NCBI GenBank assembly: GCA_030584185.1
Contig: CP129495.1
Coordinates: forward strand, 372,001 to 436,000
Direction: 5' to 3'
From: Acidimicrobiia bacterium
GTDB taxonomy: Bacteria; Actinomycetota; Acidimicrobiia; Spongiisociales; UBA11373
DNA length: 64,000 nucleotides
The number at the start of each line of letters is the position of its first letter. The first letter of the stretch is position 1. The notes under the pieces are model-generated. The model was not told the DNA's origin. It searched no databases and saw nothing but the letters and a program-made list of their open reading frames with translations. Shown piece after piece: positions 18,646 to 34,092 of this stretch. The position numbers and the translations under genes were made by a program.

Positions 18646-20631
18646 ATGCGCCTCACCATCCGAACGGGCAGCGACCAGGTGGCCCGCGCCGACCGCGCCC
18701 TCCTCGCCGCCATGGGCTTGCCCGGAGGCGGCGTGGTACGGGTCGGCCGCACCCACGCCCTGGTGCGCCCGGGCGACACCGCCCATCCCAACGATCTGGT
18801 GCTCCCCGCCGACGTCGTGGCCAACTCGGGCGTCGCCGCCGGCACCTCCCTGGATGTGCCCCGGTCCAACCTTCCCGGGGCACGCCGGGTCGTGTTCGCG
18901 GGCGAGAGCCTCCCCGGCGACAGGCGACACCTGGCCCGGGCACTGCAGGGACGACCTCTCACCGCCGGCGACAGGCTCACCATCACCCCCGGAGAGGGAT
19001 CGACCCCTGTCGCTCTCGAGGTCCTGGAGGTGGATCCCGACGGCGCCGCCCTGGTCGGAGGCGGCACGCTCCTGCTCACGGCCGGCGACGGGGAGGGGTC
19101 GGCGCTCACCGCCCACGACCCCGGCCTGGTTCCCGGCGATGGGCCCACGACCGCCCAGGCCCTGGTCGCCGGGCTCGACTCTCAACTGGAGACCCTCTCC
19201 GGATGGCTGCGCCTGCTCACCGGAGCCGAGGCGCTCCCCAAGGCCTGGGGCCTCCCCAGGGTGGCCGGGGTCGTGCTTGAGGGGCCTTCCGGATGTGGCA
19301 AGTCCGAGCTGGTCGCCGTCGCCGCCGAACGCGCCGGCGCCACGGTCCAGGAGGTGACCGTCGACCTGGTCTTCAAGCCCGAGCGCCTGGTCGACGTCCT
19401 CGACCGGGCGGTGAAGGGATCCACCCCGCCGCACGTGCTGTTCGTCGACCGTCTCGATGCCGTGGCGGGCGCCGACGGCCTCTTCCGAACCCAGGCGGGG
19501 GCGATCATGCGCTGGTTCCTCGACGCCGTGGCCGACCGCGACGGTGTGGCCTGCGTGGTCGGCGTCACCTCGGCAGACGCCCTCGACCCGTCGGTGTCGG
19601 ATTCACCTCTGCTCCCGCGCACGCTGGCCGTTCCGCCGCCTGACCTGAAGCGGCGACGGATGCTCCTCGAGGCGGCCCTCGCCCGCGTGCCCCACGGCGA
19701 ACTCGACCTCGATGCCCTGGCGGCGCGCACCGCAGGCTTCTCCGGGGCCGACGTGGTCGCAGCCGTGGTGCATGCCTCTGCGCTCTCGGTGGGTCGAGGT
19801 GACCCCATCACCGACGATCTGCTCGGGGAGTCGATCGCCGCCACACCCCCCTCACTTGGCGCCCTTCCCGGCGGGGAGATCCCCGCCCACGGCTTCGAAG
19901 CCGTGGCCAACCTCACCGAGGTGAAGCAGCGACTCACCGAAGCCGTCATCTGGCCGATCACCGACCCGGGGCGCTTCGCCCGCCTCGGGATCGAACCTCC
20001 CCGCGGCCTCCTGCTCCACGGGCCTCCGGGTACCGGGAAGACCTTCGTCATCGGAGCCCTGGCCCACGAGTCGGGCGCCGCCTTCTTCCCGGTGAAGGGG
20101 GCCGAGTTGCTCGACAAGTACGTGGGCGAGTCGGAACGGGGCGTCCGGGAGATCTTCGCCCGGGCGCGGGCCGCGGCCCCCTCGATCCTCTTCTTCGACG
20201 AAGTCGACGCCCTGGCCCCGGTGCGGGGACGCAGCACGACCTCGGTCACCGACAGCGTGGTGGCGGCACTTCTGACCGAGATGGACGGCATCACCGGCCG
20301 CGGCGACGTCGTCGTCATCGGTGCCACCAACCGCATCGACCTGGTCGACCCCGCGCTGCTGCGACCGGGAAGGCTCGAGTCTCACATTCACCTGGGACTG
20401 CCGCCGACCGAGGCCCGCCGGGCACTGCTCGCCATCACCGACCTTCGTTTCGCCCCCGAGGTCGACCTCGACGCCCTGGCCGAGTCGACCGAGGGGCTCT
20501 CCTTCGCCGATCTCACCGGCCTGCTGCGTGAGGCGGCACTGCAGGCACTTCGCTCCGACCCGGCGGCGATGGCGGTGTCCACGGCCGACCTCGCCGCCGC
20601 CCGTTCGGCTCTCTCCGGAGGCGGGTCCTGA
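18646..20631 (+). CDS. Cdc48/VAT-like tandem AAA ATPase with degenerate first ring
   Basis: A 661-residue protein. Residues 1-170 resemble the double-psi barrel N-domain of Cdc48/VAT. D1 (about 185-420) keeps Walker A 'GPSGCGKS' near residue 213, but Walker B reads 'VLFVDRLDAV', with Arg where the catalytic Glu belongs, and no 'RPGR' arginine finger is present. D2 (about 430-650) is complete: 'GPPGTGKT', 'ILFFDEVDAL', 'GATNRIDLVDPALLRPGR'. Cdc48 rings unfold proteins or remodel complexes; here D2 would be the motor and D1 structural. ATG 18646 matches the conserved N-domain and a leaderless promoter. The downstream TlpA gene starts within its stop codon. Confidence 0.88.
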   Translation: MRLTIRTGSDQVARADRALLAAMGLPGGGVVRVGRTHALVRPGDTAHPNDLVLPADVVANSGVAAGTSLDVPRSNLPGARRVVFAGESLPGDRRHLARALQGRPLTAGDRLTITPGEGSTPVALEVLEVDPDGAALVGGGTLLLTAGDGEGSALTAHDPGLVPGDGPTTAQALVAGLDSQLETLSGWLRLLTGAEALPKAWGLPRVAGVVLEGPSGCGKSELVAVAAERAGATVQEVTVDLVFKPERLVDVLDRAVKGSTPPHVLFVDRLDAVAGADGLFRTQAGAIMRWFLDAVADRDGVACVVGVTSADALDPSVSDSPLLPRTLAVPPPDLKRRRMLLEAALARVPHGELDLDALAARTAGFSGADVVAAVVHASALSVGRGDPITDDLLGESIAATPPSLGALPGGEIPAHGFEAVANLTEVKQRLTEAVIWPITDPGRFARLGIEPPRGLLLHGPPGTGKTFVIGALAHESGAAFFPVKGAELLDKYVGESERGVREIFARARAAAPSILFFDEVDALAPVRGRSTTSVTDSVVAALLTEMDGITGRGDVVVIGATNRIDLVDPALLRPGRLESHIHLGLPPTEARRALLAITDLRFAPEVDLDALAESTEGLSFADLTGLLREAALQALRSDPAAMAVSTADLAAARSALSGGGS

Positions 20632-21110
20632 GACGCCTCGTATCCGCCACCACCCTGGCGCTCGTCCTGGGGGCGTGTGGCGCCGGCACCGGGTCACCCG
20701 ACGAGGTGCCCCCTCTGGAGCCGATCGACCCGGCGGCGATGGAGACCATCCTCGCCGCATCCGAGCGCCCGATGGTGGTCAACGTCTGGGCCTCGTGGTG
20801 TGCCCCGTGCCGTTCGGAGGCGCCGCTGCTCCGGACGGCGGCAGAACGCTGGGGCGACGAAATCCAGTTCTTCGGGATCGACGTGCGAGACGATCAGGCC
20901 GGCGCCAGGGCGTTCATCGCCGAGTTCGGTCTCGACGGCTTCGAGCACCGCTTCGACGCCACCGGAGCCGTGCCTGCCGCCCTCGGGGGCTCCGGCGTCC
21001 CCCTCACCTTCTTCTTCCGGTCCGGAGGCGAACTGGCCCATCTCCACCGCGGAGTGATCGACGAGCGAACCCTGGCACTGTGGATCGACGAGCTCCTGGC
21101 CGGCGGGTGA
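20628..21110 (+). CDS. TlpA-like thioredoxin-fold lipoprotein, CTG start
   Basis: A 160-residue protein with lipoprotein signal 'TTLALVLGACGAG' (lipobox Cys near residue 18) and a thioredoxin domain with active site 'WASWCAPCRSE' and cis-Pro loop 'GGSGVPLTFFF'. It should act outside the membrane as a disulfide reductase, plausibly keeping apocytochrome or CcmH thiols reduced. The signal peptide is only retained if translation starts at CTG 20628, which overlaps the stop of the Cdc48-like gene (CTGA) and has GGAGG 6 nt upstream. The first ATG/GTG-type start, at 20706, would delete the signal. It opens the cytochrome maturation region. Confidence 0.85.
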   Translation: MRRLVSATTLALVLGACGAGTGSPDEVPPLEPIDPAAMETILAASERPMVVNVWASWCAPCRSEAPLLRTAAERWGDEIQFFGIDVRDDQAGARAFIAEFGLDGFEHRFDATGAVPAALGGSGVPLTFFFRSGGELAHLHRGVIDERTLALWIDELLAGG

Positions 21111-21830: not shown

Positions 21831-22475
21831 ATGACCGGCTCGCTGATCTCCCTCGAAGGCGTGGCACTGCGCCGAACCACGACCCTCATCCTGCGCGCCG
21901 TGGACCTCGAGGTGGCTCCCGGCGAGGCCGTCGGCCTCTTCGGTGCCAACGGCTCCGGCAAGACCACCCTGCTGCGTCTCATCGCCACGCTGGCAAGACC
22001 ATCGGCGGGCTCGGGCCGGATCCTGGGCGCACCCCTCGGTACGGGAGCGGTGGAAGCGGTCAGGCCTCGGATCGCCCTGATCGGCCACGAGCCGGCGCTG
22101 GCCCCATCGCTCACCCTCGCCGAGAACCTCCGCCTCTTCGCCAGGCTCTCGGGCGCCGAACCGGAGGCCGCGGCCCGGGCGCTGGACGAGGTCGGGTTGG
22201 CGGGCGCCGCCGGGCGCCGTGCCGACCAGTGTTCGAACGGGATGCGGCGCCGTGCCGAGTTCGCCCGGGTCGCCCTCACCGAGCCCGAGGTGCTGCTGCT
22301 CGACGAGGCGCACGTCGGCCTCGACCCGGCGGCGGCGACGCTGGTCGAGCGCACCGTCGCCGCCACCCTGGAGCGCGGCGGCTGCGCCATTGTCGTCTCC
22401 CACGAACGAGAGAGAGTGGCGCCGCTGATATCTCGGTCGGTTCTGCTCGTCGACGGGCGGCTGGAGGCGGCATGA
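21831..22475 (+). CDS. ccmA: Heme exporter/cytochrome c maturation ATPase CcmA
   Basis: A 214-residue ABC ATPase, the usual CcmA length. Walker A is 'GANGSGKTTLLRLIATL', the signature is 'CSNGMRRRAEFARVAL' (the SNGxRRR form typical of CcmA rather than LSGGQ), and Walker B is 'VLLLDEAHVGLDP'. With CcmB, CcmC and CcmD it releases holo-CcmE after heme loading. It heads a run of genes with 4-14-nt overlaps through 28030. Confidence 0.9.
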   Translation: MTGSLISLEGVALRRTTTLILRAVDLEVAPGEAVGLFGANGSGKTTLLRLIATLARPSAGSGRILGAPLGTGAVEAVRPRIALIGHEPALAPSLTLAENLRLFARLSGAEPEAAARALDEVGLAGAAGRRADQCSNGMRRRAEFARVALTEPEVLLLDEAHVGLDPAAATLVERTVAATLERGGCAIVVSHERERVAPLISRSVLLVDGRLEAA

Positions 22476-23125
22476 TCCGCCATGCCCTGACCCTCTTCCG
22501 CTTCCAACTGGTCGAGGAACGCCGCTCCGGCGAGGTGGCCATGGTCCTGACTCCCTTCGGTGCCGTGGCACTGCTGGTGGTGCCGATGGCCGTCGGGATC
22601 GACACTCCCCTATTGGATCGCATCGGCCCCGGGCTCTTCTGGGCCGTGGTGCTGCTGTTCGGCACCTTGGTCACCCAACGCCAGAGCGCCTTCCCCGACC
22701 GGGCGCGGCGAGACGCCCTCACCCTGCTCGGCGTCGACCCGGCGGCCCGCTTCGCCGCCTCGGCGGCCGCCGCCGCCATCCTCCTGCTCGCCTTCGAGGT
22801 GGCGATGGGGGTGGTGACCGTCTTTCTCTACGACCCGAAGGTCACCGGATGGTGGTGGATGGTGCTGCTCCTCCCGCTGGTGGCAGGTGGTCTGGGACTG
22901 TTGGGCACGCTGGCCGGAAGCGTGGCGACGGGCTTCAGGGGCGGGACGCTCGCCCCCCTGCTGGTGGTGCCGCTGGCGGTCCCGATGCTCCTCGGGGCGG
23001 CCCGAGCCACCGAAGGCTTGCAATCCGGCGACGGTATCCTGCGCTGGATCCTGCTGCTGGCGCTGATGGACTTGATCCTGGCCCTGGCAGGGGTGCTCAC
23101 CGCCCGCCCGCTGGAGGAGTCGTGA
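22472..23125 (+). CDS. ccmB: Heme exporter membrane protein CcmB
   Basis: A 217-residue integral membrane protein with six hydrophobic segments; 'FRFQLVEERRSGEVAMVLTP' at the N-terminus matches CcmB. It starts inside the ccmA stop (ATGA). It pairs with CcmA in the ABC complex that frees heme-loaded CcmE. Confidence 0.87.
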   Translation: MIRHALTLFRFQLVEERRSGEVAMVLTPFGAVALLVVPMAVGIDTPLLDRIGPGLFWAVVLLFGTLVTQRQSAFPDRARRDALTLLGVDPAARFAASAAAAAILLLAFEVAMGVVTVFLYDPKVTGWWWMVLLLPLVAGGLGLLGTLAGSVATGFRGGTLAPLLVVPLAVPMLLGAARATEGLQSGDGILRWILLLALMDLILALAGVLTARPLEES

Positions 23126-23826
23126 TCAGACCTCTCGACCTCGCCGCCGCCCTCACCCTGATGGCGGCCCTGGTCCTCGGCCTGGTGGTGCCGCCGGACG
23201 CCGTCCAGGGCGACCTGCAGCGGATCATGTACGTCCACGTGCCGTCGGCGTGGCTGGCGTACCTCGCCTTCGGGGTGACCCTGGTGGGCAGCATCGCCTG
23301 GCTGGTCACCCGCCGCATCGCTTGGGACCACATCGCCGGGGCGTCGGCCGAGATCGGCGTGGTGTTCACCGGGCTGGCGCTGGTGACCGGGAGCATCTGG
23401 GGTAAGCCGGTGTGGGGTGTGTGGTGGACCTGGGATGCCCGGCTGGTGCTGACGGCGGTGATGTTCTTCGTGTACCTGGGCTACCTGGCGCTGCGCCGGG
23501 CGATGGCCGAGCCAGCGCGGCGCGCCACCCGGGCGGCGGTGTTCGGCATCGTCGCCGCCGTACAGATCCCCCTGGTCCACTTCTCTGTGATCTGGTGGCG
23601 CGGACTGCACCAGCCACCGACGGTGCTGCGCCCCGACGACCCCCAGATCGACGGCCCACTTCTCGCCGCCCTCCTCGCCGCCGTCTTCGCCTTCACCGTC
23701 GCATACGCCGCCCTCTTAGGCCGCCGGCGGCACCTGGCCCGGTTGGAGGATGAACTGATGGCGCTCCCCGGAGCGAGCGAGCAGGTGGCCGGAGCCGCCA
23801 TCGCCGAACCCGGAGCGATGTCATGA
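23122..23826 (+). CDS. ccmC: Cytochrome c maturation heme-handling protein CcmC
   Basis: A 234-residue membrane protein of the heme-handling superfamily. The tryptophan-rich signature 'WGKPVWGVWWTWDARL' is intact, with histidines in 'YVHVPSAW' and 'PLVHFSVIWWRGLHQP' positioned as axial heme ligands. CcmC loads heme onto CcmE. The GTG start overlaps ccmB by 4 nt. The C-terminal tail is longer than usual and Ala/Glu-rich. Confidence 0.92.
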   Translation: MIRPLDLAAALTLMAALVLGLVVPPDAVQGDLQRIMYVHVPSAWLAYLAFGVTLVGSIAWLVTRRIAWDHIAGASAEIGVVFTGLALVTGSIWGKPVWGVWWTWDARLVLTAVMFFVYLGYLALRRAMAEPARRATRAAVFGIVAAVQIPLVHFSVIWWRGLHQPPTVLRPDDPQIDGPLLAALLAAVFAFTVAYAALLGRRRHLARLEDELMALPGASEQVAGAAIAEPGAMS

Positions 23827-23942
23827 GCGACTGGGGTTGGGTGGCGCTTGCCCAGGCGATCGTCTACGCGACGCTCGCCTCCTATGTGGTGAGCCTGGCG
23901 CTTCGCACCCGGAGGGCGACCAAGGCACTGGGGAAGCGATGA
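23823..23942 (+). CDS. ccmD: CcmD-like single-helix miniprotein
   Basis: A 39-residue protein beginning 'MSDWGWVALAQAIVYATLAS', with one membrane helix followed by an Arg/Lys-rich tail. It starts in an ATGA overlap with ccmC and ends in one with ccmE, exactly the position of ccmD in System I operons. CcmD aids release of holo-CcmE. Identification rests on size, topology and position, since CcmD sequences are poorly conserved. Confidence 0.8.
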   Translation: MSDWGWVALAQAIVYATLASYVVSLALRTRRATKALGKR

Positions 23943-24349
23943 GGCGGTACCGTCTGTTCATCGTCGCCACCGCCGGATTGGCAGTCGTGCTCATCGGGTT
24001 CCTGGTCGCCAACCTGGGGGAGAACCTGGTCTACTACCGCACCCCGTCCGAGGTGGCCGACGCCACCGAGCCCGGGCCCGACCGTTTCCGTCTCGGCGGC
24101 CAGGTGGTGCCCGGATCCATCGTCGAGAACGGTGCCACCATCCTCTTCGAGGTCGGTGACGGCAAGGAGATCGTCGCCGTGGAGCACTCGGGGGCCCCGC
24201 AGCAGCTGTTCCGGGAGGGGATCGGGGTGGTCGTCGAAGGGACCTGGGACGGAACGGTGTTCCGCTCAGACTCGATGATCATCAAGCACGACGAGCAGTA
24301 CCGCACCGAGGACGGCAGCGTGTACACCCCCGACTCGCACCAGCCGTGA
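23939..24349 (+). CDS. ccmE: Heme chaperone CcmE
   Basis: A 136-residue protein with an N-terminal anchor helix ('LFIVATAGLAVVLIGFLVA') and an OB-fold domain. 'FRLGGQVVPGSI' and 'GIGVVVEGTWDG' are family motifs. The covalent heme-binding His is in 'IIKHDEQYRTEDG', equivalent to His130 in E. coli 'LAKHDENY', so this is the His type, not the archaeal Cys type. It carries heme from CcmC to the CcmFH ligase on the outside of the membrane. Confidence 0.93.
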   Translation: MRRYRLFIVATAGLAVVLIGFLVANLGENLVYYRTPSEVADATEPGPDRFRLGGQVVPGSIVENGATILFEVGDGKEIVAVEHSGAPQQLFREGIGVVVEGTWDGTVFRSDSMIIKHDEQYRTEDGSVYTPDSHQP

Positions 24350-26313
24350 CCGCCGCGCTCGGCTTCTCGGCCCTGGTGACGGCGCTGGTCTCCGCAGTCG
24401 CGCTCGCCTTCACCGGTCTGCGCGCGTTCGCAGCAGGCGGAGGGCCGAGGGCTCGATTCCGCCTCCCGGTGTGGGGGCTGCTGGTTGGTGCAGCCGCCGC
24501 CATGGTGTGCCTCGAGTTCGCCCTCCTCACCGACGATTTCTCCATCGAGTACGTCGCCCGCAACCACAGCACCACTTCCCCGCTGCTGTTCACCATCGCA
24601 TCGGCCTGGGCGGCCCTCGAGGGGAGCATTGTGCTCTGGGGCCTGGTGCTCGCCGTCTTCACCGCCTGGGTGTACCGCACCGTCGGCGACGGAGACCGCA
24701 TCGGGGCGGCCGCCCTGGCGGTGATGGGCCTGGTTGCGGTGTTCTTCTTCGGGCTGATGCTCACCGCCGCCAACCCGTTCGCCACCATCTCGCCGGCGCC
24801 GGTCGAGGGCGCCGGGGCCAACCCGCTGCTGCAGAACCACCTGCTGATGGCGTTCCACCCCCCGATGCTGTACCTCGGATACGTGGGGCTGACCGCCCCC
24901 TTCGCCTTCGCCATTGCCGCACTGCTCGCCGGCGACGGCAGCACCGCCTGGCTGGAGCGCACCCGCCGCTGGACGCTGATCGCCTGGAGCTTCCTCACCC
25001 TGGGGATCCTCCTCGGGGGGTGGTGGTCGTACGAGGTGCTGGGATGGGGCGGGTACTGGGCCTGGGACCCCGTGGAGAACGCCTCCTTCCTCCCCTGGCT
25101 CACCGCCACCGCCTTCGTCCACTCGGCGATCGTGCAGCGTCGCCGGGGGATGCTCCAGGCGTGGAACGTGGCCCTGGTGATCGGGACCTTCGCCCTCACC
25201 ATCTTCGGCACCTTCCTCACCCGATCGGGGGTGGTCGCCTCGGTGCACTCCTTCACCCAGTCGGCGGTCGGGCCGGCCCTGCTCGGGTTCCTGGTGGTGG
25301 TGCTCGCCGCCGGGTTCGGGCTGTTCGCCTTCCGCGGCCATCTGGTGTCGTCCACACCGCGTCTCGACTCGCTGGTGAGCCGTGAAGGCGCCTTCCTGCT
25401 CAACAACCTGGCCCTGTCCATGTTCGCCTTCGTCGTGCTCCTCGGGACCATCTACCCGATGATCCTGGAGGCGTTCACCGGCGACCGGGTCTCGGTGGGG
25501 GCGCCCTGGTTCGACCGTGCCGCCATCCCGATCTCTCTGGTGCTCCTCTTCGCCGCAGGGATCGGGCCGGTGATGCCGTACCGCCATGCCCGGGGGACGG
25601 TGCTCTGGGAGCGTACGCGCGGGCCGCTGCAGTTCACGGCGGTCGCCTCCGTCGCCGCCGTGCTCGCCGGGCTGCGATCGGTGGCGGTGTTGCTCACCTT
25701 CGCCCTGGCCGCGTTCATGATCTCGACGATCGCCCGGCAGGCCCACGCCGCGGCACGCTCCCGGCCCGAGCGCTACTCCACGGCCGTGGCACGGCTCTAC
25801 GGCTCCGACCCCGGCTACTGGGGAGGGATGGTGTCCCACATCGGGGTCGCCCTGGTGGCGGTGGCGATCGCCTTCTCCGGCTCCTTCGACTCCCGCCAGA
25901 CCATCGAACTGGAGGTGGGTGCATCCGCCGATTTCGACGGGTACACCATCACCTATGAGGGCCCGTTCGCCCGCCAGGATCCGAACCGGACCCTGATCGG
26001 CGCCACCCTGGCCCTGGCGCGCGATGGACGTCACCTGGCCACGCTTCGACCCGCCCTCGCCCAGTACCCGAACCAGGTGCAGGCGATCCCCACACCGGCG
26101 GTGCGCACCGGGCTGCTAGAGGACGTGTACCTGTCCCTGGTCCGCATCGAGCCCGAGTCGGGGCGGGTCACGTTCGACGCCCACCGCTTCCCACTGATGT
26201 GGCTGCTGTGGAGTGGCGGCCTCCTGGTGGTGAGCGGCGGGTTGCTCTCGTTCACCGGCAGGAGGCGGCGTCGCGCCGTCTCGCTAGAGGGGGGTATCGG
26301 TGCCGCGGTCTGA
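24346..26313 (+). CDS. ccmF: Cytochrome c heme lyase subunit CcmF
   Basis: A 655-residue protein with about 14-15 membrane helices. The WWD heme motif 'WGGYWAWDPVENASFLPWL' is complete, preceded by 'GGWWSYEVLG', and conserved histidines occur around 'LMAFHPPMLYLGY' and 'FVHSAIVQRR'. CcmF with CcmH attaches heme to apocytochrome CxxCH. The GTG start overlaps ccmE by 4 nt. Size is normal for the family. Confidence 0.95.
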   Translation: MTAALGFSALVTALVSAVALAFTGLRAFAAGGGPRARFRLPVWGLLVGAAAAMVCLEFALLTDDFSIEYVARNHSTTSPLLFTIASAWAALEGSIVLWGLVLAVFTAWVYRTVGDGDRIGAAALAVMGLVAVFFFGLMLTAANPFATISPAPVEGAGANPLLQNHLLMAFHPPMLYLGYVGLTAPFAFAIAALLAGDGSTAWLERTRRWTLIAWSFLTLGILLGGWWSYEVLGWGGYWAWDPVENASFLPWLTATAFVHSAIVQRRRGMLQAWNVALVIGTFALTIFGTFLTRSGVVASVHSFTQSAVGPALLGFLVVVLAAGFGLFAFRGHLVSSTPRLDSLVSREGAFLLNNLALSMFAFVVLLGTIYPMILEAFTGDRVSVGAPWFDRAAIPISLVLLFAAGIGPVMPYRHARGTVLWERTRGPLQFTAVASVAAVLAGLRSVAVLLTFALAAFMISTIARQAHAAARSRPERYSTAVARLYGSDPGYWGGMVSHIGVALVAVAIAFSGSFDSRQTIELEVGASADFDGYTITYEGPFARQDPNRTLIGATLALARDGRHLATLRPALAQYPNQVQAIPTPAVRTGLLEDVYLSLVRIEPESGRVTFDAHRFPLMWLLWSGGLLVVSGGLLSFTGRRRRRAVSLEGGIGAAV

Positions 26314-26770
26314 GCGCACTCGAAACCTGGTTGCGGTGGCGCTGATCACCGCCTCCCTGGCCGTGATCGCCTGGGTGCTGGCGACGACTCCCGCCGCCGA
26401 CGAGGACCGGGTTCACGCCCTCGCCACAAGGCTGAAGTGCCCGGTGTGCGAGAGCGAGTCGATCGCCGATTCCCCAGCCGAGCTGTCGCGGGAGCTGTAC
26501 GCCCTCATCGAGGAGCGCGTCGATCAGGGATGGAGCGACGACGAGATCGTCGCCTTCTTCGTCTCCACCTACGGGGAGGAGGTGCTGCTCGACCCGCCTG
26601 GTGACGCCCGCACCGCACTGCTTTGGGTGCTCCCGCTGGTGGCTGCCGGGATCGGGGTGGCCCTGGTGCTGGGAAGGAGCCGCCGCGCCGAGGCAGCCGC
26701 TCTGACCGAAGAGGAGCGCGCCCGGGTCGCCCGGGCGCTCGAGGAGAGGCGACGACGTGAAGCACGATGA
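26300..26770 (+). CDS. ccmH: Cytochrome c maturation thiol reductase CcmH
   Basis: A 156-residue protein with an N-terminal helix, a CcmH domain with redox motif 'LKCPVCESESIADSPAEL' (LRCxxCQ type), and a C-terminal helix ('LLWVLPLVAAGIGVALVLG') followed by a charged tail. CcmH reduces apocytochrome cysteines before heme ligation. The GTG start lies 14 nt inside the end of ccmF. Confidence 0.92.
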   Translation: MPRSERTRNLVAVALITASLAVIAWVLATTPAADEDRVHALATRLKCPVCESESIADSPAELSRELYALIEERVDQGWSDDEIVAFFVSTYGEEVLLDPPGDARTALLWVLPLVAAGIGVALVLGRSRRAEAAALTEEERARVARALEERRRREAR

Positions 26771-27491
26771 GGCCGGACTCGCCGAGGAACGACGCGACCG
26801 GGCGCTCGACGAGCTCATCGCCCTGGAGGCGCAAGTCGAAGTGGGAGAGATCACTCCGGATCAGGCGGTCACGCTGCGGGCCCGATACGAAGCGGAGGCG
26901 GCGGCCGCCCTGCGCCACCTTGATGCCGCTGCGACGGCGCCGCCCGCGACGGGCCGCTCCGGCCGGAGGGTTGCCGCCGGCGTGATCGCATTCCTCGGAC
27001 TGGCGGCCCTGGTCACCGTTGGCCTGGTGGTGGCGGTCCGTCCCGGTTCGACCCCCACCACACCGAGCACCATCGACCTGGCATCGGTTTCGACAGAGGA
27101 GATGGAGGCGGTGGTGGCGGCCAACCCCGCGGTCCTGGGGATGCGCCTCGCCCTCGCCCGGCGCTACGTGGAGGCCGGGGAGTTCTCTGCCGCCCTCCCC
27201 CACTACCTGTACATTCTGGAGCGGGAGAACAACCCCGAGGCGCTGATGTACCTCGGATGGATGACCTACCTCTCCGGAGACGCCGCAACCGGGGTCTCGC
27301 TGCTCGAGGAGAGCCTCGAGCTTGCACCCGATGACGCCCTCGCCACCTGGTTCCTGGCCAATGCCCTTTATCACGGCCTCGGGGACGAGGAGGCGGCGCT
27401 TCCCCTCCTCGAAGCGGTGATCGCCTCGGGTGCCGCTCCCGAGGACGTCGTGGCCGAGGCCCGCCGCATGATCGAGGAGGCCGCAGAGTGA
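26757..27491 (+). CDS. TPR protein, CcmI-like
   Basis: A 244-residue protein: an N-terminal charged coiled segment (about 1-55), one membrane helix (about 65-90), then three tetratricopeptide-like repeats such as 'ALARRYVEAGEFSAALPHYL' and 'EALMYLGWMTYLSGD'. CcmI proteins (the C-terminal part of E. coli CcmH) have this helix-TPR layout and hold apocytochrome c. The GTG start overlaps ccmH by 14 nt. The assignment is from architecture and position. Confidence 0.75.
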   Translation: MKHDEAGLAEERRDRALDELIALEAQVEVGEITPDQAVTLRARYEAEAAAALRHLDAAATAPPATGRSGRRVAAGVIAFLGLAALVTVGLVVAVRPGSTPTTPSTIDLASVSTEEMEAVVAANPAVLGMRLALARRYVEAGEFSAALPHYLYILERENNPEALMYLGWMTYLSGDAATGVSLLEESLELAPDDALATWFLANALYHGLGDEEAALPLLEAVIASGAAPEDVVAEARRMIEEAAE

Positions 27492-28030
27492 CCCGACGCA
27501 CCTGGCTGGTCCTGCTGGTGGGGGTGATCGTCACCGCCGGCGCCGCTGTTGTGTTCGCCTCGCGCTTCGGAACCGACCCGACACTCGCCCCGTCGCCACT
27601 GATCGGAAAGCCGGCGCCGGAGGGTGCCATCGACCTGGTGGAGAGCAACGAGGCCCTGTCGCTCGCCGACCTGCGAGGAAGCATCGTGGTGGTCAACTTC
27701 TGGGCACCGTGGTGCATCCCTTGCCGGGCGGAGCACGCCGTCCTGGTGGCGGCCGCCGAGACCTACGGCCCGGCCGGGGTGGAGGTGATCGGTGTGGTGT
27801 ACCAGTCGGACGAGCCTGCGGTGATCGAGTTCCTCGACGAGTTCGGGAGGGCGTATCCGGTGGGAATGGACGCCCGCTCCCGCCTGGCGATCGGCTTCGG
27901 GGTGCGCGGGGTTCCCGAGACCTTCTTCGTCGACCGGGATGGGCTGGTGTACGGGAAGGTGACCGGGGCGGTCGACACCGCCATCATCACCGCCACCCTC
28001 GACGCCATGCTCCTGGAGCAACCAGGCTGA
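27488..28030 (+). CDS. CcmG/TlpA-type thiol-disulfide oxidoreductase
   Basis: A 180-residue membrane-anchored thioredoxin-fold protein: helix at 5-25, then 'VVVNFWAPWCIPCRAEH' (active site WCIPC) and 'GVRGVPETFFVDRDG' (cis-Pro loop; the GVxGxPETF form is typical of CcmG/DsbE). It should reduce CcmH or apocytochrome c. It is the last gene of the ccm run and starts in a GTGA overlap with the TPR gene. Confidence 0.9.
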   Translation: MTRRTWLVLLVGVIVTAGAAVVFASRFGTDPTLAPSPLIGKPAPEGAIDLVESNEALSLADLRGSIVVVNFWAPWCIPCRAEHAVLVAAAETYGPAGVEVIGVVYQSDEPAVIEFLDEFGRAYPVGMDARSRLAIGFGVRGVPETFFVDRDGLVYGKVTGAVDTAIITATLDAMLLEQPG

Positions 28031-28051: not shown

Positions 28052-28495
28052 ATGCCGCGACTCACACCGGAAGAGGTCGAGGAGTTCCTGGCCGGGCCCC
28101 ATGTCGCCGTACTCTCCGTGAGCAGACAGGTGAAAGGTCCGATCGCGGTACCGGTTTGGTACGACTGGGACGGCACCGCCTTTCGTGTGATCACCTTCCC
28201 CGACTCGGTTCACGGTCGGCTGATCCAGGCCATCGGACGGGCCACCATCACCTGCCACGAAGAGCGCTACGGCGAAGACGACAGCCTGGAGCGATACGTC
28301 GTCGCCGAAGGCCCCACCGAGTTCACCGAAGAGCAGATCGAGCCGGTCGTGATGCGGATCAGGGATCGCTACTACCGCAACGCTCGCCGCCGGGAGTGGG
28401 TGGAGCGCCCGTTGGCCGGGATGACCACCAGCCAGCGGGTTGCAATCCTCACCCCGGAGCGGATGTCGGGGTTCGAGTGGGCCGACGCCCTGTGA
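28052..28495 (+). CDS. Pyridoxamine 5'-phosphate oxidase-fold flavin/F420 protein
   Basis: A 147-residue split-barrel protein. The order 'VAVLSVSRQVKGPIAVPVWYDWDG' across residues 18-42 and 'FRVITFPDSVHGRLIQ' is typical of small PPOX-class proteins that bind FMN or F420 in Actinobacteria. No substrate can be assigned. A strong leaderless promoter precedes it. It converges on the selenoprotein gene with a shared terminator. Confidence 0.78.
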   Translation: MPRLTPEEVEEFLAGPHVAVLSVSRQVKGPIAVPVWYDWDGTAFRVITFPDSVHGRLIQAIGRATITCHEERYGEDDSLERYVVAEGPTEFTEEQIEPVVMRIRDRYYRNARRREWVERPLAGMTTSQRVAILTPERMSGFEWADAL

Positions 28496-28496
28496 G

Positions 28497-28520
28497 CGGC
28501 TAGCCGATTGCGGCTAGCCG
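28497..28520. terminator. Bidirectional terminator between convergent genes
   Basis: CGGCTAGCCG, loop ATTG, CGGCTAGCCG: a 10-bp stem. It lies just after the PPOX stop on the plus strand and covers the stop codon of the selenoprotein gene on the minus strand, so it serves both. Confidence 0.65.
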
Positions 28521-29141
28521 GTCGAGCTCGGCGCGCAGCGCCTCCTCGCCCACCGCCCCGAACCATCCGCCCACGATCACGTCGTCACCGGAGATCAGCA
28601 CCGAGGCCGGCTGCCCGGGAATGGCGTACAGGGCCCACAGATCGTCCGAGTAGCCCCAGAGGATCCGGGAGGGGTCGAACCAGTCGCCCACCCTTGTTCG
28701 CGACGCCTCGAGGCTGCTACGACCGGCGACGGCGAGGAAGGTGATCCGATCCTGGTACTCCGATGCGACCGCATCGATGACGGGCAACTCCCGCCGGCAG
28801 GTTGTTCACCACTCCGCCCAGAACACCATGTACACCGGCTTCTGCTCATCGGAAAGCGTGAAGGTCCCGCCCTCGCCGAGCGCCAGTGTGAAGTCGGGAG
28901 CGCCGGGACCCTCAGGCGCCTGCGTGGTGGGCGTTTCGCCAACGGTGACGGCGGTGGTCGTGGTGTCGACTCCGGGAACCGCCGAACCGGGCCCGGTGAT
29001 GGAGACTTCCACCATCGTGGTGGTGGACACGGGCGCCATCGCACCATCGGAGGCGTCGTCACCGCAGGCGGCGGCGATCAGGACGAGTGCCAGGAACGCG
29101 GTCGCGGATCGCATGGGACGGTCAACGCCCAGGCGCCACAT
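28500..29141 (-). CDS. Probable selenocysteine-containing TlpA-like lipoprotein (UxxC)
   Basis: Read through one TGA, this is a 213-residue protein. The N-terminus is a lipoprotein signal ('FLALVLIAAACGDD') and a Thr-rich linker; then comes a thioredoxin fold 'PVYMVFWAEW-TGA-TTCRRELPVIDA'. The TGA (28806-28808, residue 112) replaces the first Cys of the WCxxC motif, and the frame stays open for 101 more codons that complete the fold, including the cis-Pro loop 'AIPGQPASVLI'. The CcmG-like protein at 27488 aligns across the site as 'WAPWCIPCRAE'. Two hairpins follow the TGA. A TGC to TGA mutation or read error is the alternative. The start could also be ATG 29114. It lies 15 nt after gcdH, likely in one operon. 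Confidence 0.75.
28761..28795 (-). other. Candidate bacterial SECIS hairpins downstream of the TGA
   Basis: Hairpin 1 begins 11 nt after the TGA: GGCGGG, loop AGTTG, CCCGTC (6 bp, one G-U). Hairpin 2 begins 30 nt after it: CGATGC, loop GGTC, GCATCG (6 perfect bp). The loops lie 16 and 35 nt from the TGA. The GGU-type loop of hairpin 2 recalls the E. coli fdhF element, while hairpin 1 has the more usual distance. I cannot tell which would bind SelB. Confidence 0.45.
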
Positions 29142-29156: not shown

Positions 29157-30344
29157 TCAGTCGAAGGCGCTGATACCGGTGAGGGCCTGGCCGAGAATGA
29201 GGGTGTGCACCTCGTTGGTCCCCTCGTAGGTGAACACCGACTCCAGGTTGTTCATGTGGCGGATCACCGGGTACTCCAGGGTGATCCCGTTTGCGCCGAG
29301 GATCCCCCGGGCGGTACGGGCCACCTCCATGGCGGTGCGCACGTTGTCCATCTTGCCCAGCGAGATGTGGGTGGAGGAGAGGGTTCCGGCATCCTTCATC
29401 CGTCCCAGGTGCAGCGCCACCAGGAACATCCGGTTGCTGGCCACCATCATGTCCACCAGCTGCTTCTGGACGAGCTGATAGGAGGCGATCGGCTTGCCGA
29501 ACACCACCCGTTCCCGGGCGTAGTCGAGGGCGGTCTCGTAGCAGGCCCGGGCAGAGCCGACCACCCCGAAGGAGATCCCGAAGCGCGCCTCGTTGAGGCA
29601 GGAGAGCGGTCCCTTCAGGCCCACCACCCCGGGGAGCATCGCCCCTTCGGGCAGCACTACGTCGTCGAGAACCAGCTCCGAGGTGATCGAGGCGCGCAGT
29701 GAGATCTTCTTGTGGATGTCGTTGGCCGTGAAGCCGGGGGTGTCGGTGGGAACCACGAACCCGCGGATGCCGTCCTCGGTGCGGGCCCACACGATCGCCA
29801 CGTCGGCGATCCCGCCGTTGGTGATCCACATCTTGGTGCCGTTGAGCACCCAGTCGGAACCCTTGCGCCGGGCGGTGGTCCGCATGGACGACGGGTCGCT
29901 GCCGGCGTCGGGCTCGGTGAGTCCGAAACAGCCGATCGCCTCACCGGCGGCCATGCGGGGCAGCCACTCCTGCTTCTGCTCCTCCGAGCCGAAGGCGTGG
30001 ATGGGGAACATGGCCAGGGAGCCCTGCACGCTGACGAAGGAACGGGCCCCGGCGTCGCCGTACTCCAGCTCCATGCATGCCAGCCCGTACGCCACCGACG
30101 AGGTTCCGGCACAGCCGTAGCCCTGGAGGTGCATCCCCAGCATCCCCAGCCGCCCCATCTCCGGAGCCAGTTCCTTGGGGAATGTGCCCGCCTCGAACCA
30201 GTCACCCACCTCGGGAAGGATGCGGTCGGCGACGAAGGTGCGCACGGTGTCGCGGATGAGTCGTTCCTCGTCGTCGAGCAGGGCGTCTAGGGCGAGGAAG
30301 TCCTTGGGGTCGGGGCGTCCCGGAGTCACAGGCTGGTTGGACAT
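29157..30344 (-). CDS. Glutaryl-CoA dehydrogenase-like acyl-CoA dehydrogenase
   Basis: A 395-residue FAD enzyme. 'CFGLTEPDAGSDPSSM' and 'WITNGGIADVAIVWA' form the flavin and substrate clefts, and the catalytic Glu lies in 'YEGTNEVHTLILGQALTGI', which closely matches the glutaryl-CoA dehydrogenase ending ('YEGTHDIHTLILGRAITG'). The family converts glutaryl-CoA to crotonyl-CoA and CO2 in lysine/tryptophan breakdown. ATG 30344 gives the normal length. It stands before the selenoprotein gene. Specificity is inferred from this signature; another short-chain substrate is possible. Confidence 0.85.
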   Translation of the reverse strand: MSNQPVTPGRPDPKDFLALDALLDDEERLIRDTVRTFVADRILPEVGDWFEAGTFPKELAPEMGRLGMLGMHLQGYGCAGTSSVAYGLACMELEYGDAGARSFVSVQGSLAMFPIHAFGSEEQKQEWLPRMAAGEAIGCFGLTEPDAGSDPSSMRTTARRKGSDWVLNGTKMWITNGGIADVAIVWARTEDGIRGFVVPTDTPGFTANDIHKKISLRASITSELVLDDVVLPEGAMLPGVVGLKGPLSCLNEARFGISFGVVGSARACYETALDYARERVVFGKPIASYQLVQKQLVDMMVASNRMFLVALHLGRMKDAGTLSSTHISLGKMDNVRTAMEVARTARGILGANGITLEYPVIRHMNNLESVFTYEGTNEVHTLILGQALTGISAFD

Positions 30345-30384
30345 GCCTCCATTGTGGCAGGCGGCGAGTATCGCTCCGGCGCCC

Positions 30385-30642
30385 TCAGGCCGATCGGCGG
30401 GCGAGCCGGCGGCGATCCCGTTCGGTCGCCCCGCCCCAGATGCCGTACCTGATCCGGGCCTCGATGGCCCAGTCGAGGCACTCTCCCTGGACGGGACACC
30501 CGCGACAGACCCGGATCGCCTCCCCGGCCCCCGCATCGTCGGTGGGGAAGAAGACATCGGGATCGACGCTCCGGCACGAGGCGTAGGCGGCCCACGGCCG
30601 CTCGTCGAGATCGAGCAGGACCAGATCGGTGGGGAACGTCAT
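30385..30642 (-). CDS. WhiB-family Fe-S transcription regulator
   Basis: An 85-residue Wbl protein, restricted to Actinobacteria and their phages. The four cluster cysteines are at 23, 46, 49 and 55 (C-x22-C-x2-C-x5-C), and the beta-turn 'GIWGGATERDRRRL' with a basic tail follows, as in WhiB-type regulators that bind [4Fe-4S] and contact the principal sigma factor. AAGGGA lies 4 nt before the ATG. It is a marker of phylum. Its target genes cannot be read from the sequence. Confidence 0.95.
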   Translation of the reverse strand: MTFPTDLVLLDLDERPWAAYASCRSVDPDVFFPTDDAGAGEAIRVCRGCPVQGECLDWAIEARIRYGIWGGATERDRRRLARRSA

Positions 30643-31194: not shown

Positions 31195-31210
31195 TCCAGC
31201 ACCGGGAACA

Positions 31211-31237
31211 TTGCACGGCCCGGTGATGTCATACTGA
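31211..31237 (+). promoter_or_regulatory. Possible rnpB promoter
   Basis: TTGCAC (31211-31216) and a CATACT/TACTGA element (31230-31237) with a shorter than ideal spacing of 13-15 nt, ending just before the RNA's first stem. Placement is tentative. Confidence 0.35.
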
Positions 31238-31240
31238 TGA

Positions 31241-31601
31241 CGAGTCCGCCGGGCGGCCGCGGTCGGCTTCGGCCGGTCGAGGAAAGTCCGGACTCCACAG
31301 GGCACGGTGCTGGGTAACGCCCAGGCGGGGCGACCCGACGGAAAGTGCAGCAGAGAGCAGACCGCCGATGGCCTTCGGGCACAGGCAAGGGTGAAACGGT
31401 GGTGTAAGAGACCACCAGCGTCCCGGGTGACCGGGCGGATCGGCAAACCCCACCGGGAGCAAGGCCGAGCAGGGACAGGGTGGCCCGCCCGTTACGTCCC
31501 GGGTAGGCCGCATCGAGCCCGACCGGCAACGGCGGGCCCAGACAGATGGCCGCCGCCGACCCTTCGGGGCCGGCACAGAATCCGGCTTACAGGCGGACTC
31601 G
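31241..31601 (+). ncRNA. rnpB: RNase P RNA (bacterial type A)
   Basis: Catalytic RNA of RNase P, about 361 nt. The P1 helix pairs CGAGTCCGCC (31241-31250) with GGCGGACTCG (31592-31601). Conserved core elements are visible: GAGGAAAGTCCGGACTCCAC from about 31273, the 'AGTGCAGCAGAGAGCAGACC' block, 'GGGTGAAACGGTGGTGTAAG', and the final ACAGAATCCGGCTTAC before the P1 3' strand. It processes tRNA 5' ends with the RnpA protein, not found here. A strong terminator follows. Its last 60 or so nt are repeated at 33398. Confidence 0.96.
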
Positions 31602-31631
31602 AAACTCGTGAGGGCCCCTTCGGGGGCCCTC
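31549..31631 (+). repeat. Direct repeat copy 1: rnpB 3' end plus terminator
   Basis: This 83-nt stretch aligns without gaps to 33398-33480, with 7 mismatches (76/83 identical). Copy 1 is the functional one, being continuous with rnpB and having a perfect terminator stem. Confidence 0.9.
31610..31631 (+). terminator. rnpB terminator
   Basis: GAGGGCCCC, TTCG tetraloop, GGGGCCCTC: a perfect 9-bp stem 8 nt after the RNA's P1 helix. Confidence 0.85.
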
Positions 31632-31669
31632 ACCTGTTCGGTGGGGGCGCCGCCGACACCGCCGGGGTC

Positions 31670-33349
31670 ATGGGTGGATCCGCTCCTGCCACCCTCGACG
31701 AGCTGGCGTCGACGGAACGCCAGGTCATGACGGAGGTGCTCGAGCGCTCGGGCGTCACGGCCAGCCTCGGAGCCGACCGCTGGGCCGAATTCGAGGCCTT
31801 CCTCTACGCCGCGGTCGCCGGGACCACATCCGATTTGGGCCTGGTCGCCGCCCCGTTGCCTGCGACCGCTTCCGAGGTGGCGGCCGCCGGCCCGGTCGTG
31901 GCCATCCCCGCGGTCATCTCCCGCCTGGTCCCGGCGGCGGCCACCCGGGCTGGCGAGGGAGTGATCGGGTTCGTCCTCGCCTTGCCGATGGTGCAGGCGG
32001 TGGTGACCGGCTCGCTCGGCGACGGGGCGAGCCTTGAGGTCGCCGAGACCCACGAATCCGAACAGGGTGGTGAGCGCTCGGTCGGCACCGTCACCGGCAC
32101 GATCTCGTTCAGCCATTCGGGCTCGCGGATCGTCTCCAGCGTCGACCTCGCGATCCAGATCGACGTCTACGACGGCTCGGGCCGCCTGCTACGCAGCGTG
32201 ACCTTCCGCAGCATCGGCACCGTCGAGATCGACATGTGCCCCGACGAGAACGGTGCGATTCGCGGGCATGGCTCGCTCACGATGACCGGGAGCAGCAGCG
32301 GGGGTGCGTCGGGATTGGCCACGGCAACCTCCGACGCAGATGTGACGATCACGGGGATGGTGGATCCGGACGCCTACCTGCAGTCGGTGGAGATCGAGGC
32401 AGCGGCCTCCGACGACACCCAGTCGGGGACGGATCCCGCCGAGACGACCGCCGTCGAGTTCGACGGCGCGATGACGATGGGGCCACAGGGCGGGATCGAC
32501 GGCCATCAGATCACCCGCGACACCGGCCGGATCGTGCGACGGGCCCCGTCGGCGTCGCAGGCTCAGCTCGACTCGATGAGCGATCGCGCCGCCCAACTGA
32601 TCGGCGGGATCCTCGATGCCCTGGCCCGCTCGGCACAGGAGCAGTGGCGCGGCGGGGCATGCCTCGAGATCCGTTCCACCGAGAGCAGCCGCGACGTCCG
32701 CCCGTCGGAACAGGTTCAGTTCACCGCCAGCCTCCACCACCTGGTGGAAGGCAACGAGCTGGACAAGCCGATCTCGGTCGCCTTCAGCGGACGGGCGTCG
32801 CTCGACCCGGTCGATTCCGCCGTCCCGGCGCCGGTGTTGCTGTCGTTCCTCGCCGGCAGCCAGTCGGAAGACATCGGGACCGTTCACCTCCAGAGCACCT
32901 CCAACCGCGGCATCGCCTCCCTGGAGGTCACCTTCCGGGTGGTTGTCCCGGGTTGGAAGATCGACCAGATCTTCTCCGGTGGTCAGGTGGTCGGCCAGAA
33001 GTGTGGAGACCCTACCGGCACGTGGGTGGCCGAGGGAACCTATGAACGCGTCGGCATGACCGGCCACCAGACCTGGACGATGGGGATCGACGCCGACGCC
33101 GGGTCCGGCGAATTCACATATGTCGACCTCGCCCAAGGTGCACCGGGCGGCGTCGTGACCGTGTACATGGAAGGTCTGGCGATCGGCACGGTGACCCTGA
33201 CGATCGACCCCGACGGGATGGCGCGCATGCACATGACAGAGACCGAACACTCGTACTGGTCGTGGACTTCGGTCGGTGGACAGGGCTACGAGGTGGGGGC
33301 CGAGCTCGCCGAGTACGACCTCATCTGGGAGCCGGACAGCACCTGCTGA
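31670..33349 (+). CDS. Hypothetical protein lying between two rnpB 3' ends
   Basis: A 559-residue protein I do not recognise. Residues 1-110 are Ala/Val/Leu-rich and probably helical. The rest is strand-rich with alternating Thr/Ser/Val ('GTVTGTISFSHSGSRIV', 'GHGSLTMTGSSSGG') and a final domain starting 'CGDPTGTWVAEGTYE', which looks like an extracellular beta-barrel or jelly-roll. Only a few cysteines occur. The composition suggests a secreted protein, yet there is no signal peptide: the frame runs upstream straight through the rnpB terminator. ATG 31670 has no ribosome site. The 5' end may have been cut off when the rnpB repeat formed. Confidence 0.6.
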   Translation: MGGSAPATLDELASTERQVMTEVLERSGVTASLGADRWAEFEAFLYAAVAGTTSDLGLVAAPLPATASEVAAAGPVVAIPAVISRLVPAAATRAGEGVIGFVLALPMVQAVVTGSLGDGASLEVAETHESEQGGERSVGTVTGTISFSHSGSRIVSSVDLAIQIDVYDGSGRLLRSVTFRSIGTVEIDMCPDENGAIRGHGSLTMTGSSSGGASGLATATSDADVTITGMVDPDAYLQSVEIEAAASDDTQSGTDPAETTAVEFDGAMTMGPQGGIDGHQITRDTGRIVRRAPSASQAQLDSMSDRAAQLIGGILDALARSAQEQWRGGACLEIRSTESSRDVRPSEQVQFTASLHHLVEGNELDKPISVAFSGRASLDPVDSAVPAPVLLSFLAGSQSEDIGTVHLQSTSNRGIASLEVTFRVVVPGWKIDQIFSGGQVVGQKCGDPTGTWVAEGTYERVGMTGHQTWTMGIDADAGSGEFTYVDLAQGAPGGVVTVYMEGLAIGTVTLTIDPDGMARMHMTETEHSYWSWTSVGGQGYEVGAELAEYDLIWEPDSTC

Positions 33350-33397
33350 CACACCGCCTGCGCCGCGGCGTCGGTGCCGGGCCAACCCAGCCGGATC

Positions 33398-33480
33398 GCC
33401 GCCGCCGACCCTTCGGGGCCGGTGCAGATTCCGGCTCACAGGCGGACTCGAAGCTCGTGCGGGCCCCTTCGGGGACCCTC
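33398..33480 (+). repeat. Direct repeat copy 2: decaying rnpB 3' end relic
   Basis: It repeats 31549-31631 with 7 substitutions, including changes in the conserved ACAGAATCCGGCTTAC segment and two that break the terminator stem. It contains the P1 3' strand GGCGGACTCG but no 5' part of rnpB, so it cannot make RNase P. The interval between the copies is 1,766 bp. It may still act as a weak terminator for the hypothetical gene. Confidence 0.9.
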
Positions 33481-33534
33481 ACCCGCGGATGCCCTAACAT
33501 CCCGCAGCCCGCATCCACCAAGGAGCCCCCTCGC

Positions 33535-34092
33535 ATGATCCGCCGGAGCCTGACGGTCCTGGTCGCCCTCACCATCCTCGCAACGGCTTGTGGCGACGAC
33601 CGGGGGGGAGATGCCACCACCTCGACACCCACATTCGCTGCCACCACCACCGCTCAGGCCGAGCCGACGACCGGCACCAGCGACACCTCCGGACCGGCGG
33701 CCGGCGTAGACGCATCCGGTCGGGTGACCGTGGCGGCGACGGTGCTGGCGTTCCTGTTCGACACCGTCGTGCTGTGGGGTGAGGCCGCCCTTGACGGATC
33801 GAGTCTCGCCGAAGGGATCACCACCGTGTATCCGATCCGGGTACGCGGAGCGGCTGTCGAGGCGGACCCCGAAGGCATCTCCATGGCGATAATGGCCACC
33901 GACGACAAGTCACCCGCCTCCGGCGACAACCCCTGGCTGGTGGCGTTCGCCGTGGTCGACGAATCCGGTACCTGCAAGGCCGGGGTCGTGGCAGGCTTCC
34001 CGGCCCCGAACACCCCTACAGAGGTCACCATTCCTGCCGGCACCGCCTGCTCGGCGGCGAACGCCGTGGCGCTCTTGAACTACGGCGACTGA
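33535..34092 (+). CDS. Hypothetical lipoprotein
   Basis: A 185-residue protein with lipoprotein signal 'LVALTILATACGDD' (Cys near 21), a Thr/Ala/Pro-rich stalk to about residue 60, and a globular domain of unknown type with two cysteines ('GTCKAGV', 'GTACSAA') that could form a disulfide. AAGGAG lies 11 nt before the ATG and TAACAT (33494-33499) is a possible -10. Function unknown. Confidence 0.75.
   Translation: MIRRSLTVLVALTILATACGDDRGGDATTSTPTFAATTTAQAEPTTGTSDTSGPAAGVDASGRVTVAATVLAFLFDTVVLWGEAALDGSSLAEGITTVYPIRVRGAAVEADPEGISMAIMATDDKSPASGDNPWLVAFAVVDESGTCKAGVVAGFPAPNTPTEVTIPAGTACSAANAVALLNYGD

Follow-up and report, generated by a model that had tools for sequence, protein, structure and literature searches.

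A gene on the minus strand (28500..29114) of the window, a stretch of 64,000 nucleotides from contig CP129495.1 of an Acidimicrobiia bacterium, almost certainly encodes a genuine selenoprotein, in which the UGA at 28808-28806 specifies selenocysteine (Sec). The computed support comes from conservation of the codon, covariation of a SECIS hairpin, the decoding machinery of the source genome and the predicted fold, and Sec would accordingly be expected at this position in vivo. The predicted product is a TlpA/ResA-like thioredoxin lipoprotein of 204 amino acids with Sec at residue 103 (U103). As the standard code ends the gene early at the TGA, conventional gene finders would shorten or overlook it throughout the order.

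The initial annotation, which gave no strand, had placed a TGA at the first active-site Cys codon of a frame open on both sides, with a lipoprotein signal and linker before it and an undecayed thioredoxin fold with a cis-Pro loop after it, and this description was borne out in each respect. The TGA (28806..28808) lies on the minus strand within WAEW-U-TTC, and the frame extends from either of two in-frame ATGs, at 29141 and 29114, through a TAG stop at 28502-28500, the start at 29114 being better supported since orthologues align from there. With the TGA read as Sec, the protein comprises MRSATAFLALVLIAAAC, a T/P/G-rich linker and a thioredoxin domain. The lipoprotein signal peptide (29064..29114, minus strand) was recognised from its sequence and carries the lipobox cysteine C17, invariant in 10 aligned orthologues; the product is therefore predicted to be exported and lipid-anchored at C17. 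The thioredoxin domain (about residues 67-204; 28503..28916, minus strand) contains the active-site stretch VFWAEW-U-TTCRRELP and the cis-Pro loop Q168-P169, and orthologues show little or no variation at U103-xx-C106-xx-E109 or at Q168-P169. The Pfam families AhpC-TSA, Thioredoxin and Redoxin all score above cut-off. Compared with orthologues from its own family (f1), the window protein shows 27-43% identity in the linker, and 68-89% before and 55-75% after Sec within the thioredoxin domain, indicating that coding beyond the TGA is conserved.

Comparison analysis across the order revealed a highly conserved TGA. The protein is present in 98 of 138 genomes (E <= 1e-30), among which 93 have TGA at exactly this codon and five have Cys only. 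The comparison of homologues proposed in the initial annotation returned only TGA, TGC or TGT at the site in all orthologue loci read, within the motif WAEW[U/C]xxC, and a conserved in-frame UGA is thereby seen at a redox-active position occupied by Cys in homologues; where an orthologue frame holds a second TGA, as some do, this either terminates the gene or precedes its start. Chance is excluded by the recurrence of this TGA in 93 genomes. Its retention by relatives across the order marks a genuine family of selenium enzymes rather than a broken gene. The named relatives are uncultured MAGs, labelled mostly Acidimicrobiia or Actinomycetota, and in searches within the class, high-scoring members of the family came from a single order.

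The distribution of the two codon forms largely follows that of the decoding machinery. Within f1, the eight orthologues with TGA all come from genomes with both SelB and tRNA-Sec, and the two with TGC come from genomes (G001 and G012, 97 and 96% complete) with neither. Over the whole order, SelB was detected in 83 of the 93 TGA genomes; five of the other 10 have tRNA-Sec (G020, G046, G065, G073 and G098) and five are only 56-77% complete. SelB is absent from four of the five Cys-only genomes, the exception being G136. The association between the TGA form and SelB (Fisher p 0.0013) is descriptive, as the genomes are related, and the phylogenetically independent Sec/Cys pairs, none of which is opposite in direction, are too few for a formal covariation test. 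At least four Sec/Cys changes are needed on a tree of 82 sequences with modest support and unknown root; two of them fall within f1 and coincide with absent machinery, and for these the sequences are more simply read as Cys derived from Sec. Cys copies also occur in G136 (L064/L148) and G052 (L063/L150) although SelB and tRNA-Sec are present. In one genus, three tandem WAEWUxxC copies were observed, each with its own TGA (L143 and L165 in G105 and G109; also in G108 and G110).

The initial annotation had also suggested a search for selA, selB, selD and tRNA-Sec, and all four were found in the source genome, a single contig of 2.21 Mb that is 96.5% complete (completeness values throughout being tool estimates). 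The tRNA-Sec matches RF01852 above the gathering score (57.9 bits) and is called as tRNA-SeC with anticodon tca by ARAGORN; SelB (336.6 bits, the match spanning the whole frame) is adjoined by SelA (396.2 bits), and SelD (385.4 bits) has a TGA of its own within the motif GAGUACK. Thus selA, selB, selC and selD reside in the same genome as the bacterial selenoprotein gene. The tRNA-Sec genes of G000, G003, G004, G007, G008, G011, G077, G082, G084 and G085 score only 57-60 bits against about 68-80 bits for most of the order, and the low scorers are therefore divergent tRNA-Sec genes, belonging to part of f1 and a few genomes of family f7. The selD of the source genome (G000:C1:1115946-1116872) is a TGA gene whose hairpin has a GGUC loop; the majority of SelD genes in the order also carry TGA, a few being without it (G008, G121, G122 and G134), and the TGA-bearing ones mostly have an RGU-loop hairpin about 33 nt after the TGA.

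A hairpin immediately downstream of the TGA appears to be selected across the family. Two 6-bp hairpins starting 11 and 30 nt after the TGA, the second with a GGTC loop, had been noted in the initial annotation; both exist as described, and as SECIS elements the first proved to be selected family-wide and the second to be formed only in a subset of 15 sequences. Hairpin 1 (28779..28795, minus strand; GGCGGG-AGUUG-CCCGUC) pairs positions 11-16 with 22-27 after the TGA around an AGUUG loop, and is marked by conserved pairing, compensatory changes and synonymous constraint. Standard pairs account for 96.7% of cells in 75 sequences, compared with 41.1-67.3% when the pairing is slid by 1-3 columns, and changes on both sides of the stem number 22 vs 5.2 in shuffles, with pair 11-27 occurring as G-C, A-U, C-G, U-A and G-U. 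Excess synonymous identity peaks sharply across codons +4 to +10 and rises less at +2 and +20. Of 76 TGA genes, 58 use TTG for Leu +7 (vs 12% elsewhere in those genes) and 71 use CCC for Pro +8, and CGG encodes Arg +5 in 72 of 74, a codon pattern absent from Cys orthologues. The predicted MFE of the hairpin is <= -7.5 in 73 of the 76 TGA genes (mean -10.5), whereas Cys orthologues range from -0.5 to -5.3. In a few aligned sequences (e.g., L098 and L078) the hairpin is broken or shifted.

Published bacterial SECIS elements have a loop of 3-9 nt, a stem of 4-16 bp, G at loop position 1 or 2, a spacing of 16-37 nt and an MFE <= -7.5 (PMC13188914). Hairpin 1 of the window gene falls within these limits, with a 5-nt loop carrying G in second place, a 6-bp stem, a spacing of 16 nt (the edge of the published range) and an MFE of -10.1, and it covaries as well, which answers the call for a SECIS prediction made at the outset. 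The MFE of the isolated 60 nt is not unusual (z -0.99), and the significance of the hairpin therefore derives from comparison alone. RNAalifold recovers only its outer three pairs, and no Rfam family scored above the gathering score in the hairpin region. When a SECIS model was built from the family, window gene included, this gene was the sole confident match in the source genome; another match, of 17.8 bits at G000:C1:1204566, falls in a frame that makes no sense as coding and was taken as chance. The SECIS of Escherichia coli fdhF is likewise a small stem-loop directly after the UGA with a G-U motif in its loop; unlike it, most members of the present family have an AGUU loop at 16 nt, and the window gene adds GGUC at 35 nt.

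Hairpin 2 (28761..28776, minus strand; CGAUGC-GGUC-GCAUCG) pairs positions 30-35 with 40-45 after the TGA. It was rejected as a family-wide SECIS, as only 50.9% of cells are paired and synonymous constraint is absent in 61 of 76 sequences. All 15 sequences that encode the peptide DAVAS, which belong to f1 and to part of f7 and include the window gene, form it. In this subset the stem covaries (GAT..GCA vs GAC..GCG), the loop reads either GGUC or AGUU, and the codons are constrained (TCG in 15 and GCA in 12 of 15). Outside the subset, 60 of 61 sequences retain AGUU in the loop of hairpin 1, vs four of 15 within it (Fisher p 3e-9, the sequences being non-independent), the other 11 having lost it by synonymous change. 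It may be, and we suggest this tentatively, that the SelB-binding RGUY loop, which most lineages carry in the hairpin at +11 to +27, was relocated to the hairpin at +30 to +45 within one orthologous gene, the window gene perhaps keeping both loops as an intermediate or a double SECIS. A related hypothesis would be that one loop motif is used at two distances, in this gene and in SelD.

These data allow other explanations of the TGA to be weighed. With only one genome to judge from, a genuine TGA would be indistinguishable from a nonsense mutation or sequencing error in a broken Cys thioredoxin gene, but the same TGA is present in 93 genomes from several families and separate assemblies, with conserved coding after it; this recurrence already refutes a broken gene, to which we attach a vanishingly small probability. 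UGA might instead be read as Trp (code 4), or stop readthrough, which exists in principle, might insert Cys or Trp. Several orthologues, however, use TGA as their ordinary terminator, relatives without Sec at the site have Cys in every case and never Trp, and both SelB and the SECIS-like hairpin go with the TGA form, so that decoding without Sec is very improbable. An equally slight chance is given to a regulated stop, with a short form made under scarce selenium and having its own role: decoding of UGA varies with the supply of selenium, but such a form would hold only the signal, the linker and a fragment of the fold, and the linker is poorly conserved (27-43%).

As for the function of the selenoprotein, an AlphaFold2 model computed from 49 orthologues has a mean pLDDT of 85.9, with 94-98 over most of the thioredoxin domain. 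The best matches among solved folds are ResA (target TM 0.83-0.89, 20-23% identity; 0.88, target-normalised, for 2f9s/1st9), DsbE-like and CcmG proteins. A thioredoxin fold, a WCxxC-type site and a cis-Pro are all present, as in TlpA/ResA-like oxidoreductases. The protein resembles ResA, CcmG and TlpA in its fold, in its active site with a following Glu, in its cis-Pro and in its predicted anchoring outside the cytoplasm, and differs from them in having Sec as the first active-site residue and only about 20-23% identity to ResA. The C-xx-C-xx-E spacing of U103/C106/E109 equals that of Cys74/Cys77/Glu80 in ResA, which puts E109 at the spacing of Glu80.

On the basis of the fold and neighbourhood, a role as a reductase linked to cytochrome c or to other extracytoplasmic disulfides is moderately probable. 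An oxidase, an isomerase, or a reductase of peroxide or selenium compounds at the cell surface is a less likely but still serious alternative, as DsbF and pneumococcal Etrx lipoproteins are among the fold matches besides ResA and Sec often helps enzymes to withstand over-oxidation. The closest folds are nevertheless ResA, DsbE and CcmG-like proteins, and E109 at the Glu80 spacing and the CcmG/TlpA gene neighbours also argue against such a role. In the favoured overall reading, the UGA would be decoded by SelA, SelB, SelD and tRNA-Sec of the genome under the direction of the AGUU-loop hairpin at +11 to +27, as family-wide, and in the window clade of an additional hairpin with a GGUC or AGUU loop at +30 to +45. 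The product, a ResA/TlpA-type thioredoxin with a U103-xx-C106 site, would be exported and anchored by lipid at C17, and would most likely act outside the cytoplasm as a selenol-disulfide reductase. Its selenolate would attack a substrate disulfide, C106 would resolve the mixed selenyl-sulfide thus formed, and the selenoprotein would be re-reduced by an electron carrier in the membrane. The direction of catalysis would thus be reductive; a plausible client is either a component of cytochrome c maturation or the Cys thioredoxin encoded nearby.

The genomic context includes two Cys homologues in or beside a ccm cluster, as the initial annotation had stated. A CcmG/DsbE-like Cys thioredoxin (27488..28030, plus strand) lies on the opposite strand downstream of the selenoprotein gene, and a TlpA lipoprotein lies within the stop-to-stop frame 20532-21110. 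The cytochrome c maturation genes (22229..27491, plus strand) are ccmB, ccmE, ccmF, ccmH, a TPR/CcmI-like gene and one that is probably ccmC, to judge from its sequence. An opposite-strand Cys thioredoxin is found within a few kilobases in 39 of 79 loci; it is either CcmG from the ccm cluster or a TlpA lipoprotein, the latter mostly accompanied by an Lgt-like gene. This arrangement suggests a reductase for extracytoplasmic disulfides tied to cytochrome c maturation; ccm linkage itself was found at some loci only. A PPOX/F420-type flavin oxidoreductase-like protein (28052..28495, plus strand; a sub-threshold match) is not conserved beside the gene, and the upstream acyl-CoA dehydrogenase on the same strand (29157..30557, minus) is a neighbour in 11 of 79 loci. 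Similar peptides, e.g., 'ARTSFESAC.P.S.PAPKGRRR', recur in translations of window positions 31200-34000, which suggests a repeated DNA element.

A 2026 inventory lists 119 prokaryotic selenoprotein families or subfamilies, including UxxC proteins of TlpA-like, Prx-like, DsbG-like and thioredoxin types (PMC13188914). No NCBIfam model (June 2026) reached its cut-off on the window protein. The best was ResA NF002854, at 42.6 bits vs a cut-off of 170, although the protein would probably work like ResA. The Rcas_1661 family thioredoxin-like (seleno)lipoprotein NF041057, DsbG-like in the inventory (PMC13188914), is also a thioredoxin-like lipoprotein with UxxC, and scored 23.7 bits vs 190. The ResA-like WAxxUGC motif-containing protein NF041054 similarly has Sec after WAxx, but with UGC rather than UxxC, and scored 25.2 bits vs 300. 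A thiol-disulfide isomerase-like selenoprotein from the Sargasso Sea (PMC1088965), listed as cd02966 with UxxC (PMC13188914) and represented by MGB1650493.1, resembles the window protein in combining a TlpA/ResA-type fold with UxxC, as far as a comparison by description goes. No paper joining Acidimicrobiia with a selenoprotein of this kind was found in the literature, whose coverage was incomplete. The window protein and its orthologues thus apparently form a subfamily, not yet described, within a known kind of selenoprotein (UxxC TlpA-like), unless they coincide with the Sargasso set.

These results point to an actinobacterial order that has kept selenocysteine for a surface thioredoxin. The search for further TGA genes in the source genome covered a few families (AhpC/TSA and formate dehydrogenase); formate dehydrogenase had no match above cut-off, and the AhpC/TSA family contributed no further gene with a TGA. 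As no TGA gene besides SelD was seen in these families, the window protein may be a principal user for which the Sec machinery is kept. Paired Sec/Cys orthologues, the loss of selB in some lineages and the presence of two SECIS-like hairpins within a single gene make the family a test bed for why Sec is retained and how SECIS elements move. More distant sister lipoproteins of the thioredoxin type (L167-L176), found elsewhere in the order and class, have TGA at the same position, within the motifs WAPHU[PS][TI]C, WAPWUGSC or WAPFUSVC, and appear from their sequences to make up another selenoprotein group of the class, related to the first; several of these genes have a strong hairpin right after the TGA.
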